From Propionibacteriaceae bacterium (GTDB lineage: Bacteria > Actinomycetota > Actinomycetes > Propionibacteriales > Propionibacteriaceae), in NCBI GenBank assembly GCA_003451975.1, contig DMIX01000327.1, forward strand, positions 1 through 6,341: DNA of 6,341 bases, given 5' to 3'. Both the position numbers and the translations under genes were made by a program. This document shows, in pieces, positions 1 to 6,341 of the stretch (within the stretch, counting starts at the first letter, position 1; each line of letters starts with the position of its first letter). Below the pieces are notes generated by a model. That model saw nothing but the letters and a program-made list of their open reading frames with translations. It did not search any database and was not told the DNA's origin.

Positions 1-50
1 CGACTGGGTCAACACCACCACAGCCCGGGCAGGTGGTGTTGACCCAGTCG
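1..50. repeat. Perfect 19-bp inverted repeat at the window edge (fold-back)
   Basis: Bases 1-19 are the exact reverse complement of bases 32-50, separated by a 12-nt spacer that encodes the CPGC of LeuRS. One arm codes for DWVNTT, a normal LeuRS sequence. The other gives GGVDPV in place of the conserved segment expected after the second Cys pair. The repeat begins on base 1, as expected of a contig-end fold-back; a natural hairpin in the gene is less likely. Confidence 0.9.
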
Positions 51-1495
51 GTGGCCGAGGCCAGCGGGCTGGTGCCCTTCGGCGCCAGCGCAGCACCGCG
101 CAGATCGGGCAGTTCCACCGGCAGCTGGTCATCGGGCACCGGCACTTCACCGCAGGCCGGGCAGTGCACGATCGGGATCGGGCAACCCCAGAACCGCTGC
201 CGACTCAGCAGCCAGTCGCGCAGCCGGAAGGTGACTGCCTTCTCGCCGCGCCCCTGCTCGGTCAGCTTCTCGGTGATTGCGGCGATGCCGGCCTTCTTGT
301 CGGTCAAACCATTCAGGCCCGGTGAGTTGACGTAGACCCCATCGCCGGGGGTGGCGACGAAGGTCTCGGCCGGATCAGGCTGGCCGGTCTCGACGACCAC
401 CTGCACCGGCAGTTCGAATGCCTTGGCGAAGTCCAGATCACGCTGATCGTGGGCTGGGACGGCCATCACCGCACCAGTGCCGTAATCGGCCAACACGTAG
501 TCGGCGGCGAACACCGGCAGCTTCTCGCCGTTCACCGGATTGATGGCGTGTACTCCCAGGAAAACTCCGGTCTTGGGCCGCTCGCTGGACTGCCGCTCGA
601 TTTCGGTGGCGCGCTTGGTGGCCTCCAAGTACTCCTCGAAGGCGGCACGCTGGGGGTCGGTCACGATCTCGGCAGCCAACGCGGCTTCAGGGGCAACCAC
701 GAAGAAGGTCGCACCGAATAAAGTGTCGGGCCGGGTGGTGAACACCCGCACCGGTTCGTCGCGTCCTTCGATCTCGAAGTCGACCCAGGCACCTTCGGAG
801 CGTCCGATCCAGTTGCGCTGCATTGACAGCACCCGATCCGGCCAGGTGCCTTCGATCAGGTCCATGTCGTCCAGCAGCCGCTGCGCGTAGTCGGTGATCT
901 TGAAGTACCACTGGGTCAGCTTGCGTTTGGTGACGACCGCGTGGCAGCGCTCACATTCGCCCTGTACGACCTGCTCATTGGCCAGCACGGTCTGGTCGTT
1001 GGGGCACCAGTTGACGTAGGAATCCTTGCGGTAGGCCAGGCCGCGCTCATAGAAGCGCAGGAACAGCCACTGCGTCCAGCGGTAGTACTCCGGATCAGAG
1101 GTGTGCAGGCGACGCGACCAGTCCAAGCTCAGCCCGTAGCGCTTGAAGGAGCCGGCCTGGGTGTCGATGTTGGCATAGGTCCAGTCGGCCGGATGGGCGT
1201 CGCGAGCGATGGCGGCATTCTCCGCGGGGAGCCCGAAGGAGTCCCAGCCGATCGGATGCATCACGTCGTAACCCTGCAACCGCCAGTAACGGGCGACGAC
1301 GTCGCCCATGACGAAGGCCTCGGCATGGCCCATGTGCAGGTCCCCGGAGGGGTAAGGGAACATGTCGAGCATGTAGCGACGCTCCTTGGAACCGTCGTCC
1401 ACAGGGGCGAAGGTGCGGTCAGCCTCCCAGAACTGCTGCCACTTCTCCTGTGCTGCCACGGCGTCGTAGCCGCTGCGCACTGCCTCGCTGGTCAA
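1..1495 (-). CDS. leuS: Leucyl-tRNA synthetase, N-terminal ~498 codons (3' end cut by window)
   Basis: This class I synthetase charges tRNA-Leu with leucine in the cytoplasm. Counting from the TTG at 1495, the protein shows the HIGH-type motif HMGH at residues 54-57 within [11 protein letters not shown], then [17 protein letters not shown] (80-96). A Cys cluster follows (C164, C181, C184, in NWCPND...CERCH), consistent with the zinc insertion. The CP1 editing domain carries TTRPDT (253-258) and [15 protein letters not shown] (339-353), whose last Asp matches the conserved editing Asp of E. coli Leu[16 protein letters not shown] (424-437) returns to the catalytic core, and CPAC (445-448) and CPGC (489-492) suggest a second metal site. 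KMSKS and the anticodon-binding domain lie outside the window. TTG is chosen as start because AAGGAG sits 8 nt upstream; an in-frame GTG at 1504 overlaps that SD. The last codons before the window edge (1-19) lie in a perfect inverted repeat and depart from the family sequence, so they may be artefactual. Confidence 0.97.
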
Positions 1496-1503
1496 TGTCG
1501 TCA

Positions 1504-1509
1504 CTCCTT
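1504..1509 (-). promoter_or_regulatory. Ribosome binding site of leuS (decides the TTG start)
   Basis: AAGGAG on the minus strand ends 8 nt before the TTG at 1495-1493. The in-frame GTG at 1504-1502 would share its first base with the SD and have no spacer, so TTG is the better start. Confidence 0.8.
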
Positions 1510-1539
1510 GTTCAACCGGATCGTGCCTGCTAGAGCATG

Positions 1540-1576
1540 AAAAAACCCCCGCGCACCGCTCAGGATCGCCAGGGGC
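1540..1576 (-). terminator. Intrinsic terminator in the leuS leader (attenuator)
   Basis: Read on the minus strand, CCCCTGGCG (1575-1567) pairs with TGCGCGGGGG (1555-1546). The pairing gives nine base pairs with two G-T wobbles and one bulged G (1552), around a loop of about 11 nt. Six T's (1545-1540) follow immediately. A GC stem plus T-run stands out in such a GC-rich genome. It lies 44 nt upstream of the leuS start and downstream of a small leucine-rich ORF, so it is placed to stop transcription before leuS rather than at the end of a gene. Confidence 0.75.
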
Positions 1577-1578
1577 CG

Positions 1579-1601
1579 CCGCGACTGCACTGCAGCCGCG
1601 G
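1579..1601 (-). promoter_or_regulatory. Leader hairpin directly after the leader-peptide stop codon
   Basis: CCGCGGCTGC (1601-1592) and GCAGTCGCGG (1588-1579) form a 10-bp stem with one G-T wobble and a 3-nt loop (AGT). The stem begins on the base next to the TAG of the small upstream ORF. Its 3' arm also contains CAGTCGC (1587-1581). That stretch can instead pair with GCGA (1569-1566) and CTG (1563-1561) of the terminator stem and loop, a 7-bp alternative with a 2-nt bulge. This makes it a candidate antiterminator arm. The pairing was done by hand and no folding energy was calculated. Confidence 0.65.
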
Positions 1602-1640
1602 CTAGAGAAGCTTCAACTCAACGCCGAACACAGCGGTCAT
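1602..1640 (-). CDS. Putative leuS leader peptide, [12 protein letters not shown]
   Basis: This is a 12-codon ORF running from ATG (1640) to TAG (1604-1602). It ends Glu-Leu-Lys-Leu-Leu-stop, so three of the last four sense codons are leucine (TTG, CTT, CTC). TTG and CTT are normally minor leucine codons in high-GC genomes. It lies 106 nt upstream of leuS and is followed by a 10-bp hairpin and an intrinsic terminator. Its likely role is to sense leucyl-tRNA supply by ribosome stalling, not to make a functional peptide. No good Shine-Dalgarno precedes the ATG. An in-frame GTG at 1631 would give the 9-codon MFGVELKLL and lies just after a -10-like TAAGAT, which suggests leaderless translation. 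The ORF is too short to judge by coding statistics; the call rests on its position and leucine content. Confidence 0.6.
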
Positions 1641-1644
1641 CTTA
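1639..1644 (-). promoter_or_regulatory. Possible -10 element for the leuS leader transcript
   Basis: TAAGAT on the minus strand fits the actinobacterial TANNNT -10 pattern. Transcription would begin about 7 nt downstream, at or next to the GTG at 1631, giving a leaderless leader-peptide mRNA. If so, the ATG at 1640 would not be transcribed from this promoter. No recognisable -35 lies 16-19 bp upstream, because that stretch is a GC-rich inverted repeat. Confidence 0.4.
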
Positions 1645-3435: not shown

Positions 3436-4698
3436 GTGAGCACGGCGGCCCCCATACGGATTGGCATCTTCACCGACGACTTCTATCCGGAGTCCGGCGG
3501 AGTGAGCCGCTCCATTCAACTGCAACTGCAGGTGCTGGCCGCCGCCGGCCACGAGGTCATCTTGTTCGCGCCGTCCTCCCACTTCACGCCTCCGGTCGAA
3601 TGCCGCTGGGAAAAGACCCCACAGTGGCGGCTGCCCGGCACGCCCAGCTACCTGTGCAGCCTGCAGGTCGGCACCGGCCTGGCCCGACGCATCGCCGCCG
3701 ATCACCCCCGGCTGGACGTGGTGCACTCCCAGAACGAACGCGGCGCAATCTTTCTCGCCGCCCAGGTCGCCGCCGAGTTGTCGATCCCGCAGGTGCACAC
3801 CTTCCATTCCAACTATGTCGGCACCCATCGCAACGCGCCCGGTGTGGCTGCACTGAACTCCCTCACCTACCTGGACTGGTCCGGACGCTGGCTGCGACGC
3901 TTCCGTGATCCGGAGCACCGACGGGATTTCCGTCCCGCCACGGTGGCCGCAGAACCCGGAGATTCGTCGTTGGCGCCCAGAGACTGGCGCAGCATGGCAC
4001 GGCTGGCCTCAGCGGTGGATCGCTTCACCTCGCCGGCACCGTTCGTGGTCGACAACATGGTGGCGGCCTCGGGCGGCCGCCTCGAACCTTTCGGACGCGT
4101 CGTGCCCAGCGGCGTCGCCACTGCCTTCACCAGGACCGTCCGCAAGCGTCCTCGCGGCGCCATCACCCGATTCCTCAGTGCCGGGCGCCTCGGGCCGGAG
4201 AAGCGGATCGACGTGCTGCTGGATGCCTTCGAACTCCTGGCTCGCGATGACGCCGAGTTGCACATCATCGGCAGCGGCGGCGCCGAGCGAACACTGCGCC
4301 AGCGTGCCAAACGCATCGCGCATGGCACGGTGCGTTTCCTCGGCCATTTCACCGACGCCGATCTGCTGGCCCAAGAACTCGCCGACGCCGACGTGTTCGT
4401 GCTGGCGTCCTACCGCTTCGATACCCAAGGCATGGTGCTCGCCGAAGCAGCCGCCACCGCGACCCCGATCCTGTATTGCGATGATCGGCTTCAGGTGGGG
4501 ACCAGCACCGAAAGCGCCTTGTTGACCGGCCCCAGTGCGGCGGATCTCGCCGTCGGCATGCGTAAGCTCATGGATGATCCGGCAAGGCTGGAGTCGATGT
4601 CGGCCGCGGCCGCCACCCTGGGAGCGACGTTGGGCGCCGACGCGATGTGCGAGTCCTATGTGGAGGTCTATCGCGGCGCAATCCAGGATCGCGCCTGA
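3436..4698 (+). CDS. GT4-family glycosyltransferase (GT-B fold)
   Basis: The product is 420 residues, typical for GT4 enzymes, which transfer a sugar from a nucleotide donor with retention. The N-terminal acceptor half begins IRIGIFTDDFYPESGGVSRS (7-26), with the glycine-rich first loop, and later carries HTFHSNY. The C-terminal donor half has SAGRLGPEKRIDVLLDAF (residues 248-265), then DTQGMVLAE (329-337), the position of the E-x7-E motif of the family. Here the first acidic residue is Asp. No signal peptide or membrane helix is seen, so it probably acts at the cytoplasmic membrane face. The Thr-Gln-Gly form of the motif recalls glycolipid-forming GT4 enzymes such as diacylglycerol glucosyltransferases and PimB-like mannosyltransferases, but donor and acceptor cannot be read from sequence. 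GTG is the start that keeps the first beta strand at the usual place. It may be cotranscribed with the membrane protein upstream, suggesting an envelope role (inference). Confidence 0.9.
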   Translation: MSTAAPIRIGIFTDDFYPESGGVSRSIQLQLQVLAAAGHEVILFAPSSHFTPPVECRWEKTPQWRLPGTPSYLCSLQVGTGLARRIAADHPRLDVVHSQNERGAIFLAAQVAAELSIPQVHTFHSNYVGTHRNAPGVAALNSLTYLDWSGRWLRRFRDPEHRRDFRPATVAAEPGDSSLAPRDWRSMARLASAVDRFTSPAPFVVDNMVAASGGRLEPFGRVVPSGVATAFTRTVRKRPRGAITRFLSAGRLGPEKRIDVLLDAFELLARDDAELHIIGSGGAERTLRQRAKRIAHGTVRFLGHFTDADLLAQELADADVFVLASYRFDTQGMVLAEAAATATPILYCDDRLQVGTSTESALLTGPSAADLAVGMRKLMDDPARLESMSAAAATLGATLGADAMCESYVEVYRGAIQDRA

Positions 4699-4702
4699 TC
4701 AG

Positions 4703-5662
4703 CTACTCGGCCGCCTCGACCTGCGGCACCTCAGCAGCCGGCCGAAGCCGTGACTGAGCCTCGGGGTGGTATTTGCTCAGCAGCACCACACCGCTGATCG
4801 CGACCGCACCGGAGATGGCCATGCCAATGCCGTCACCGATCGTGAGCAGCGCCCCCTCCCCCAGCACGATGATGCCGAAGGTGACTGCCACGATCGGGTC
4901 GGTGGTGGTCATGGATCCGACCACGATTTCGGCCGGACCGTTGGCGTAGCCCTGTTGAATCATCCACGCGCCGAACAGGTAGCTGCACAGCAGGAAGAAC
5001 AGCACCACGTAGAACAGTGGCTGGGTCCAGAACTGGTCGCGTCCCAACATCTCAAAGGTTGATTTGACCATCGCCGAGCTGAGTCCGTAGATGAAGGCAC
5101 CGCCACTGGCCCACATCAAGCAGCGGCGAGCTGCCGAGCCGTGCATTCCCAGATAGCCCAGCACTGCGGCGATTCCGAACACCACCAGCGCAGCCACCAC
5201 GATCGGTAGCGGCTCGAGCACCGTCTCTTTGGCAGCCGTGGATGCAGAGAAGTAGGTGAAAGCAGCAACCCCGATGATCGTCAGCGCAACCGCACCCCAG
5301 ATCATCTTGGACGGTCGGAAATGGTGAATCTTCGCAGCCAACAGCACCGACCAGGGCACTGCCAGAATGCCCACCGGCTGCACCACGGTGACCGGTGCGA
5401 GCGCCAATCCGCAGATGTGCATGCTGGCACCGATGACGATCATGGTCAGGCCACCGAGCCACACCTTGTTCTTCAGCAGGCCGAACACCTGGCGCAGGTT
5501 CATCGACCGGTTCTCGGATTCGACGTCCACGGTGCCATCGACGGCGAGGTGCTGCACGGTCGAACCGCTGGCGAACAGGAACGAGGACAGCACCACAATC
5601 GTGATGGCCAACGGCACGTTCTGCTCGAGTTGGAAGAACCCACTCAGGGGTATCAGCGTCAT
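4703..5662 (-). CDS. DMT-superfamily (EamA/NIPA-like) membrane transporter
   Basis: The product is 319 residues. I count about nine hydrophobic segments: near 17-38, 67-88, 89-111, 119-140, 151-171, 182-200, 215-236, 243-266 and 276-296. They are linked by short loops, in two related halves. Segments such as GLALAPVTVVQPVGILAVPWSVLLAA (85-110) and TDPIVAVTFGIIVLGEG (254-270) resemble the drug/metabolite transporter repeat, in which a helix-breaking Pro is followed by small residues. Many actinobacterial relatives are annotated simply as DMT transporters, and NIPA magnesium transporters are a related branch. The substrate cannot be inferred. The C-terminal tail (297-319) is hydrophilic and acidic. 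The ATG start at 5662 has only a weak SD (GGGA). The stop is 4 bp from that of the convergent glycosyltransferase, with no terminator between them. The gene follows the AlbA_2 gene after 66 nt on the same strand, so they may share a transcript. Confidence 0.87.
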   Translation of the reverse strand: MTLIPLSGFFQLEQNVPLAITIVVLSSFLFASGSTVQHLAVDGTVDVESENRSMNLRQVFGLLKNKVWLGGLTMIVIGASMHICGLALAPVTVVQPVGILAVPWSVLLAAKIHHFRPSKMIWGAVALTIIGVAAFTYFSASTAAKETVLEPLPIVVAALVVFGIAAVLGYLGMHGSAARRCLMWASGGAFIYGLSSAMVKSTFEMLGRDQFWTQPLFYVVLFFLLCSYLFGAWMIQQGYANGPAEIVVGSMTTTDPIVAVTFGIIVLGEGALLTIGDGIGMAISGAVAISGVVLLSKYHPEAQSRLRPAAEVPQVEAAE

Positions 5663-5728: not shown

Positions 5729-6341
5729 TCAGCGAGCATCCGAGAAACGCACTGCGGCCAGCAGTTGAGCGGCTAGTGACGAACCCAAATTGAGCGGCCA
5801 GCGGTGCATCACGTATTCGGTGGCGTCATCAACGCTGAGTTGCCGGGTGGAGTTGCCTGAACGCACCCAGAATTCTGGAGCTGCTCCTTTGGCGGCCCGC
5901 AGATACACCGGGCGCGGCGACGGCCGACAGCTGATCCGACACACCGGACGCAGCGCATCACCACCGTCGACCTCGGGAAATTCCACCTTCACCAGTGCCG
6001 CGGCGTTCTGACCCAGGTCAACGGTGAGCAGGTCACGCAGCCACAGCTCGTAGCGGTCCAGATCGGGGGCTTTCATGACGGCCAGGTCGGCGTCCAGGCC
6101 GAGCGGGCTGCCGGCATCGTCGACGCCCACCACCAGGGTGCCGCCGTCGGCATTGAGGAAAGCCGCGATGGTCTTGGCGATGATCTGCTCCATGCGAGGG
6201 TCCTTCTCGCCAGTGCGCAGATTCACCCGGGCGGTGGATTTGAACTCCACCCGATCGGACTCACCGGCGGCTAATAAGTCCGCCACCGGAGTTTGGGGTT
6301 GGGTCTGGAAATGGGCGGCGATCGCCGCGTAGCCGGCAATG
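5729..6341 (-). CDS. AlbA_2 / Schlafen-type putative DNA-binding domain protein, C-terminal part
   Basis: The reading frame is open from the right edge of the window to TGA at 5731-5729, giving about 204 codons. It shows the AlbA_2 domain (Schlafen group, formerly 'divergent AAA-4'): GESDRVEFKSTARVN near the beginning, KTIAAFLNADGGTLVVGVDDAGSPLGL in the middle, and FWVRSGNSTRQLSVDDATEYV near the end. In the family these match a vEFKs strand, a FlNt.GGtLliGVdd glycine loop and a final vRsGnsT element. The domain is usually linked to nucleic-acid binding or processing and often forms one end of a larger protein. A GTG at 6286 could be read as a start, but it has no SD and the frame continues upstream as an Ala/Gln-rich linker. 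The N-terminal domain, which would say most about function, is therefore missing. Confidence 0.85.
   Translation of the reverse strand, partial: IAGYAAIAAHFQTQPQTPVADLLAAGESDRVEFKSTARVNLRTGEKDPRMEQIIAKTIAAFLNADGGTLVVGVDDAGSPLGLDADLAVMKAPDLDRYELWLRDLLTVDLGQNAAALVKVEFPEVDGGDALRPVCRISCRPSPRPVYLRAAKGAAPEFWVRSGNSTRQLSVDDATEYVMHRWPLNLGSSLAAQLLAAVRFSDAR

Follow-up and report, generated by a model that had tools for sequence, protein, structure and literature searches.

Here, we analysed a stretch of DNA of 6,341 nucleotides from a Propionibacteriaceae bacterium (contig DMIX01000327.1; hereafter, the window) and compared the region upstream of its leuS gene with the corresponding regions of other actinobacteria. 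We propose that the element preceding leuS is a leucine-responsive transcription attenuator that is read by a leaderless ribosome, that likely has no antiterminator hairpin, and in which the ribosome itself would block the terminator; for this complete reading, which is built on sequence comparison, we estimate a probability of about 0.5. Its components differ in strength. That the element senses leucine is very probable, given the comparisons described below; that a stalled ribosome itself keeps the terminator open is a tentative suggestion, which we develop after the evidence on the RNA pairings.

All parts of the element lie on the minus strand, between leuS and an upstream DUF4192 gene (Pfam PF13830) that occupies positions 1674-2702 of the same strand (Table 1). 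The leuS assignment follows from a match to TIGR00396 (656.8 bits, above the cut-off of 548.4), and its TTG start was chosen by alignment with the starts of relatives. Much of the anatomy that the first-pass annotation had read from the letters is confirmed: the leader frame ends Leu-Lys-Leu-Leu-TAG (TTG AAG CTT CTC TAG, 1616-1602); a 10-bp hairpin, here P1, begins on the base after TAG (5′ arm CCGCGGCTGC, 1601-1592; loop 1591-1589; 3′ arm GCAGTCGCGG, 1588-1579), which RNAfold extends to 11 pairs by including the G of TAG; and a stem resembling a terminator, with six T's in a row, here T, is separated from the leuS start codon by 44 nt, counted from the T-run (1545-1540) to TTG 1495. A search of the window against Rfam, covering the T-box and other described RNA families, gave zero matches at E values up to 1. 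The remainder of the window holds a glycosyltransferase gene (3436-4698), a frame with a weak NIPA match below the cut-off (4703-5662), and a gene for an AlbA_2 (Schlafen-like) domain protein (5729-6340).

Table 1. Predicted and observed features of the leuS upstream region in the window (MFE, minimum free energy fold)
Feature	Position	Strand	Remarks
-10-like box TAAGAT (TANNNT) of the predicted leaderless promoter	1639..1644	-	overlaps the ATG 1640-1638 of the first-pass annotation
Leader ORF GTG TTC GGC GTT GAG TTG AAG CTT CTC TAG (MFGVELKLL*)	1602..1631	-	predicted leaderless start
CTT control codon	1608..1610	-	8 nt ahead of the first paired base of P1
Other leader Leu codons	TTG 1616-1614, CTC 1607-1605	-	
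Leader stop TAG	1604-1602	-	
P1 hairpin	1578..1602	-	11 bp in MFE; G of the stop codon pairs with C1578
T, predicted intrinsic terminator	1540..1577	-	stem about 1577-1544 in MFE; adjoins P1
Run of six T within T	1545-1540	-	
Antiterminator proposed in the first-pass annotation: CAGTCGC 1587-1581 with GCGA 1569-1566 and CTG 1563-1561	1561..1587	-	unsupported
CATG directly 3′ of the T-run	1536..1539	-	
AAGGAG, leuS Shine-Dalgarno sequence	1504..1509	-	8 nt ahead of TTG 1495
leuS (leucine--tRNA ligase), 5′ part, continuing past the window edge	2..1495	-	start TTG 1495

The fold of the single window sequence is only mildly better than that of shuffled sequences (z -1.17; 27 of 200 shuffles as good), and therefore the evidence is comparative. 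Among 169 actinobacterial loci with leuS (30 + 59 + 80 named; a few with little or no upstream sequence), the combination of a Leu-codon frame, a TANNNT box, and a terminator was detected in 90. Within the genus of the window, 21 of the 29 genomes with leuS carry the element, the window counted, and the leaders align over their whole length. The 8 genomes lacking it (L022, L024, L025, L027-L029, L118, and L121) measure 1.2-2.7 Mb, compared with 2.5-5.0 Mb for the others, sizes that are rounded and come from assemblies of uneven completeness; the absence looks as if the leader had been lost along with genome reduction. Over 65 aligned leaders, 13 of the 16 pairs of P1 and T show a change on both sides, 94.8% of the cells are paired, and the double-change cells number 124 versus 25.9 in shuffles, with none of 500 shuffles reaching the score and slid versions of the structure scoring far lower. 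Within P1 alone, both sides have changed at 8 of the 9 aligned pairs in these 65 sequences. The 21 same-genus leaders taken by themselves give a weaker signal (3 of 21 pairs; 9 cells versus 2.2). Stem, T-run, and covariation together predict an intrinsic terminator between leader and gene.

The T-run of the window is followed by CATG, and CAT is aligned at this place in 21/21 same-genus leaders, RTG often lying elsewhere. A second or coupled frame starting at this ATG was considered and rejected, its frame relation to leuS being mixed over the loci; no conserved frame starting at the CAT(G) was found across the loci compared.

Where the leader begins is indicated by the TANNNT box. In the 90 detected leaders, RTG follows the box at a distance of 6 nt in 63, 7 nt in 24, and 8 nt in 3, the detection itself having required a box within 3-11 nt of RTG and at least 2 clustered Leu codons. 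The same spacing recurs in all 39 leuS leader ORFs that were found by structure alone (28, 10, and 1 at 6, 7, and 8 nt), in a procedure that preferred box-bearing ORFs, then those with more branched-chain codons, and that did not require Leu. As a background, among RTGs located upstream of the leaders, 3 of 881 have a box so placed, and among those of the loci as a whole, 61 of 3139. In the window, the box-positioned RTG is GTG 1631, which leaves a frame of 9 codons, and 21 of 21 same-genus leaders have an RTG at the aligned place. The 12-codon frame of the first-pass annotation is indeed opened by the ATG at 1640-1638, but this start is probably wrong; it overlaps the -10-like box. An in-frame start exists at its position in 4/21 same-genus leaders (window counted), and 10/21 have an in-frame start somewhere in the upstream seven codons. 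Based on the spacing between box and RTG across leaders and on the leaderless leuL2 of Streptomyces lividans (see below), we predict that the leuS leader is a leaderless frame of 9 codons, with transcription starting at or beside GTG 1631.

The most strictly maintained feature of the leader is the position of a Leu codon relative to P1. In the 65 aligned leaders, the codon located 8 nt before the first pair of P1 is CTT in 61, CTC in 3, and CGT in 1, that is, a Leu codon in 64 of 65, although, in the leuS stretches of these loci, CTT accounts for 49 of 2346 Leu codons. Downstream, P1 and T are separated by 2 nt in 62/65 leaders and by 3 nt in the other 3, even though P1 itself spans 20 to 47 nt. 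The stop codon behaves differently: TAG lies ahead of P1 in 58 of the 90 detected leaders, whereas 25 have a sense codon in its place (CAG in 11, GAG in 8, others in 6), with a TGA inside P1, and 7 differ. The stop thus moves while the Leu codon stays fixed, which shows that conservation does not extend to the stop; this settles the concern, raised in the first-pass annotation, that a ribosome paused at the stop would cover the hairpin as well. The closeness of P1 and T was dropped as a distinctive feature, given that the folded linkers of the Escherichia coli his, ivbL, and pheM attenuators are 1 to 3 nt long; those of trp, leu, and ilvG measure 9-12 nt, and thr and phe gave no value.

The strongest evidence that the codons are read comes from a search that is blind to them. 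A covariance model (R1) built of P1 and T only, with the leader codons left out, has matches in 230 of the 394 genomes of the class or, by genus, in 102 of 138. In the genome of the window itself, its matches are leuS, a place scoring 26.5 bits, and a third with an E value of 0.9. The 26.5-bit place (L180, G000:C379:6778-6845) is a leader, MRILLVVSKRVG*, that precedes ilvB; here, P1 adjoins a terminator-like stem and the T-run is followed by CATG. From the matches in the class, 30 with sequence and 19 further places were taken, plus 40 weaker ones, of which 18 lie before ilvB, 19 before cimA, 2 before leuS, and 1 elsewhere. The gene called cimA has citramalate synthase as its best match (TIGR00977; 239.9 bits over a 205-residue part, the cut-off for the full length being 450).

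Codons were counted at structure-found places outside the training loci, L233, L234, and L236 having been dropped as repeats of training sequences and L280, which by eye repeats L095, having been kept. The control codons match the downstream gene. Of the 40 places before leuS, 39 have a leader frame, and the control region of this frame contains two or more Leu codons in 38/39 and two or more Ile codons in 0/39; before cimA (24 places, 23 with a frame), 22 of 23 have at least 2 Ile codons and 2 of 23 at least 2 Leu codons; and before ilvB (20 places, 17 with a frame), 17/17 have at least 2 branched-chain codons. No leader frame was found at L253, L308, L313, L318, and L321, and 2 further places have no matched gene, namely L246, where an LLL leader lies at the end of a contig, and L305, which has no leader. 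The p-values of this codon-gene match ignore kinship. Because R1 does not see the codons, the match is the best evidence that they are read. By contrast, the TANNNT box was seen in 3 of 17 ilvB leaders and in 0 of 23 cimA leaders, so that the leaderless reading rests on leuS.

Several actinobacterial genomes thus present predicted Ile leaders, with runs such as ATC ATC ATT, followed by P1 and a terminator-like stem, before cimA (L263, L269, L271-L273, and 19 of L282-L321). A rare codon is found in the cimA leaders, too: ATT is the last Ile codon in 15/22 of them, compared with a background of 4/90. The first match to the search pattern in 41 of 50 ilvB stretches is CTC GTA. The last control codon is often rare and U-ending (CTT or ATT; at ilvB, GTA is often followed by GTT or CTT), and such a codon may make the response to a shortage of charged tRNA sharper.

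Together, these observations weigh on the simplest alternative, that the structure is a plain terminator of the upstream DUF4192 gene, which ends at 1674 on the same strand, preceded by a Leu-rich frame that arose by chance. Such an arrangement would fit the local gene order, but the codon match, the fixed register, and the conserved box over many genomes speak strongly against it, and we regard it as barely credible.

A more serious alternative is classical, trp-type attenuation, as the first-pass annotation had supposed: a ribosome stalled at the Leu codons would free the 3′ arm of P1, which would then pair with the 5′ half of the terminator as an antiterminator. The leader, P1, and T that this scheme calls for are present, and it has been predicted for leuS of Streptomyces in the accessible part of the relevant study (PMC1262725). 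In the window, 7 pairs can be drawn, CAGTCGC being able on paper to pair with GCGA and CTG, and the shortened fold joins the two regions by 11 pairs, at least 4 such pairs being found in 60 of 90 leaders. However, the proposed pairs do not covary beyond shuffles: 89.3% of the cells are paired compared with 88.2% in shuffles, with 124 of 500 shuffles as high, and the covariation score is 0.075 versus 0.081. The pairing does score above its slid versions (7 to 48%), which is to be expected of columns that hardly vary, and the pair C62-G89 fails in 8 of 20 distinct rows. Accordingly, an alignment of the leuS upstream regions, which had been suggested as a check, preserves the Leu codons and shows compensatory changes in P1 and T, but it shows no covariation in the alternative stem.

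Searches without a preconceived partner gave the same picture. In a mutual-information scan, pairs of P1 and T come out on top; between the released region and T, there is one weak candidate (97-137). Pairs between the 5′ arm of P1 and T (56-111, 54-131, and 56-130) also score high, with 86-93% pairing, which we read as kinship. In a scan for duplexes between all segments of the 65 leaders, only P1 and T clearly exceed swapped partners; no antiterminator helix does.

Equilibrium folding with the ribosome footprint removed, a comparison foreseen in the first-pass annotation, failed to separate the models, in that T remained closed in 88 of 90 leaders and likewise in E. coli trp. Therefore, we used an interaction test, in which the RNA left free when a ribosome occupies the control codon is paired with the 5′ half of T and the energy is compared with that of dinucleotide shuffles. 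Among known attenuators of E. coli, 7 of 8 (trp, leu, thr, phe, ilvG, ivbL, and pheM) reached z values of -2.0 to -6.4 at the best codon, each value being the best of up to four codons and the other codons of the same leaders being weaker or positive. The known classical attenuator of his scored +0.9, so that the test can miss an antiterminator; we read this miss as self-folding of its long stem in the trimmed fragment.

In the 65 leuS leaders, the interaction is, on average, not above that of shuffles. With the ribosome at codon -8, the mean z is +0.47 (1/65 below -1); when the mask starts at each leader's last Leu codon, it is +0.44 (4/65 below -1). Because the E. coli values were the best of up to four codons, the leuS leaders were also run as the best of four stall positions, with a mean of +0.14 (5/65 below -1, 2 below -2). 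The window itself scores about +1.3 to +1.4 at codon -8 and +0.6 as the best of four; individual leaders do score, for instance L161, at -2.9. Neither ilvB (mean +0.59; 1 of 50 below -1; the mean includes about 8 of 50 stretches in which, by eye, the anchor or T was misplaced) nor cimA (mean +0.45; 1 of 24 below -1) gave, on average, an interaction above shuffles. A further 38 leuS leaders yielded a mean of -0.01 (4/38 below -1), while P1 itself scored -2.8 in the same RNAs. The 11 Streptomyces-type leaders within these 38 had a mean of -0.54, which leaves room for a weak antiterminator in this type.

Taken together, with 7 of 8 controls positive, no covariation of the proposed pairs, and no helix beyond swapped partners, we consider trp-type switching unlikely at these loci, and the leuS leaders probably lack an antiterminator hairpin. 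From the attenuator first suggested for the window, the Leu-codon leader joined to a terminator, the covarying hairpins, and the match between codons and gene remain; the antiterminator pairing does not.

How a leader of this kind might work without an RNA antiterminator can be outlined as follows. T is predicted to end most transcripts, and the short frame would be translated by a leaderless ribosome from the moment it emerges. If Leu-tRNA suffices, the ribosome would have finished and gone before the polymerase makes the approximately 60 nt to the T-run, P1 and T would close, and transcription would stop. When charged tRNA-Leu is scarce, the ribosome would halt on the Leu codons, its front reaching the base of P1. 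With CTT in the A site, it would cover about five bases of the 5′ arm of P1, assuming a footprint of typical size, and these approximately five bases are the most conserved stretch of P1. With P1, or its upper part, folded, few nucleotides would be left between the ribosome and the foot of T: with the intervening RNA taken up by the fold of P1, and with T beginning immediately after P1, the ribosome would come to stand at the very foot of T. Given that T must close at the exit of RNA polymerase, ribosome and polymerase together would leave no room for it, resulting in readthrough into leuS. The antiterminator would, then, be the ribosome and not an RNA stem.

This steric step, which assumes typical ribosome footprint sizes, would explain why the length and upper sequence of P1 are free, why the distances flanking it are fixed, and why no antiterminator has been kept. 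A stall at the first Leu codon, though, would reach merely the edge of P1, and this counts against it. Extending the argument, it is conceivable, if somewhat speculative, that Actinomycetes share compact attenuators at leuS, ilvB, and cimA that are leaderless at least at leuS and have no antiterminator RNA, and in which a ribosome on a rare cognate codon, parked at a fixed distance from a spacer hairpin, blocks the terminator.

Two other mechanisms would also link the leader to leuS. One is a fast attenuator operating by branch migration, comparable to that of Corynebacterium glutamicum ilvBNC, in which a few bases at the boundary of the T foot switch to a hairpin overlapping P1. It has in its favour the features common to ilvBNC and the leuS leaders, namely a leader start near the transcription start (predicted at leuS), P1, T, and the codons CUU/GUA, as far as the accessible text of PMC11857589 describes them; moreover, a switch so short could escape the interaction-energy test. 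Nonetheless, no conserved GGC/GCC-like boundary pair is discernible by eye in the leuS alignment, none emerges by covariation, and the two sides of the first pair of T covary with each other (22 double changes, 13 unpaired), all of which makes branch migration rather improbable here.

The other is translational control in the style of the LEU element, with CUUCUC pairing with the Shine-Dalgarno sequence of leuS until a stalled ribosome frees the latter. The minimum free energy fold of the window does pair the Leu-codon region with AAGGAG, and duplexes between leader and downstream region are somewhat stronger than those of shuffles (z -0.67). Yet own pairs beat swapped ones in just 35 of 65 leaders, the likeness of Leu codons to an anti-Shine-Dalgarno sequence is generic, and T would be left unexplained, so that we consider this reading very improbable.

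Returning to attenuation by a leaderless ribosome, its closest counterparts are found in Streptomyces. Attenuators with antiterminator hairpins have been predicted upstream of leuS in S. coelicolor and S. avermitilis (Seliverstov 2005, PMC1262725), and in S. lividans TK24, leuL2 before leuS was annotated from RNA-seq in 2021 and reported to be transcribed leaderless, with the leader peptide MRAVRLLLSEPR* (PMC8079986). This peptide occurs in nine loci of our set, and in a tenth it lies inside a longer frame. As far as the accessible parts of the two studies go, the Streptomyces elements and the leaders described here have the same Leu leader before leuS, then a hairpin and a T-run (PMC1262725, PMC8079986). 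The differences are that the window leader reads MFGVELKLL*, with the stop before P1, and that the reported antiterminator (PMC1262725) was not seen in the leuS leaders compared here. The accessible parts of both papers contain no analysis of register or rare codons (PMC1262725, PMC8079986), and the main text of a term-seq study of S. griseus (PMC8914203), in the part available, mentions neither attenuat-, nor leader peptide, nor tRNA synthetase.

The ilvB leaders of Corynebacterium have already been studied (PMC10272879, PMC11857589, PMC11109978). With the ilvB-II motif of ilvBNC, the leuS leaders share a start codon at the transcription start, as predicted for leuS, P1, a terminator, and CUU/GUA codons; for ilvBNC, however, an antiterminator has been proposed, with terminator mutants raising expression, in the accessible text of PMC10272879 and PMC11857589, whereas the leuS leaders here show none. 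The accessible part of the 2025 study of C. glutamicum gives an effective stabilisation of -1.5 kcal/mol from one mutation compared with -6.8 calculated, and cites Val-to-Ala changes in the leader that abolish the valine response (PMC11857589). For S. coelicolor, changes of the ilvB leader codons were without effect and leuA does not follow classical attenuation, according to the accessible part of PMC1262725. The leader table for S. lividans, in the part of the paper available, lists leuS, leuA, ilvB, alaS, thrS, trpS, trpE, and metN but not cimA (PMC8079986), and a literature search, to which subscription papers were mostly out of reach, yielded no description of a cimA leader.

Previous studies did not make clear how actinobacterial leaders switch. 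One architecture at three genes, with codons matched to the gene and with fixed distances, offers a simple set of mutants that separates the models, and the comparison adds a predicted isoleucine-responsive leader at citramalate synthase.

With the trp, leu, and phe attenuators of E. coli, the leuS leaders have in common the coupling of the ribosome position on cognate codons to a terminator; unlike the leuS leaders, these E. coli attenuators show a strong interaction between the released arm and the terminator. The E. coli leader genes have Shine-Dalgarno sites. The LEU element of actinobacterial leuA resembles the leuS leaders in its run of Leu codons in a short leader near a leucine gene, but the accessible description gives it a pseudoknot and Shine-Dalgarno pairing and no terminator (PMC1262725). 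Ultimately, leuS attenuators as such are already known from Streptomyces; what appears to be new is the breadth of the family, its members at cimA, and the lack of an antiterminator. The element of the window is of a kind already known, extends it to a new family, the Propionibacteriaceae (by the nearest named loci), and represents a variant of that kind by its missing antiterminator, its fixed geometry with a rare control codon, and its spread to cimA.
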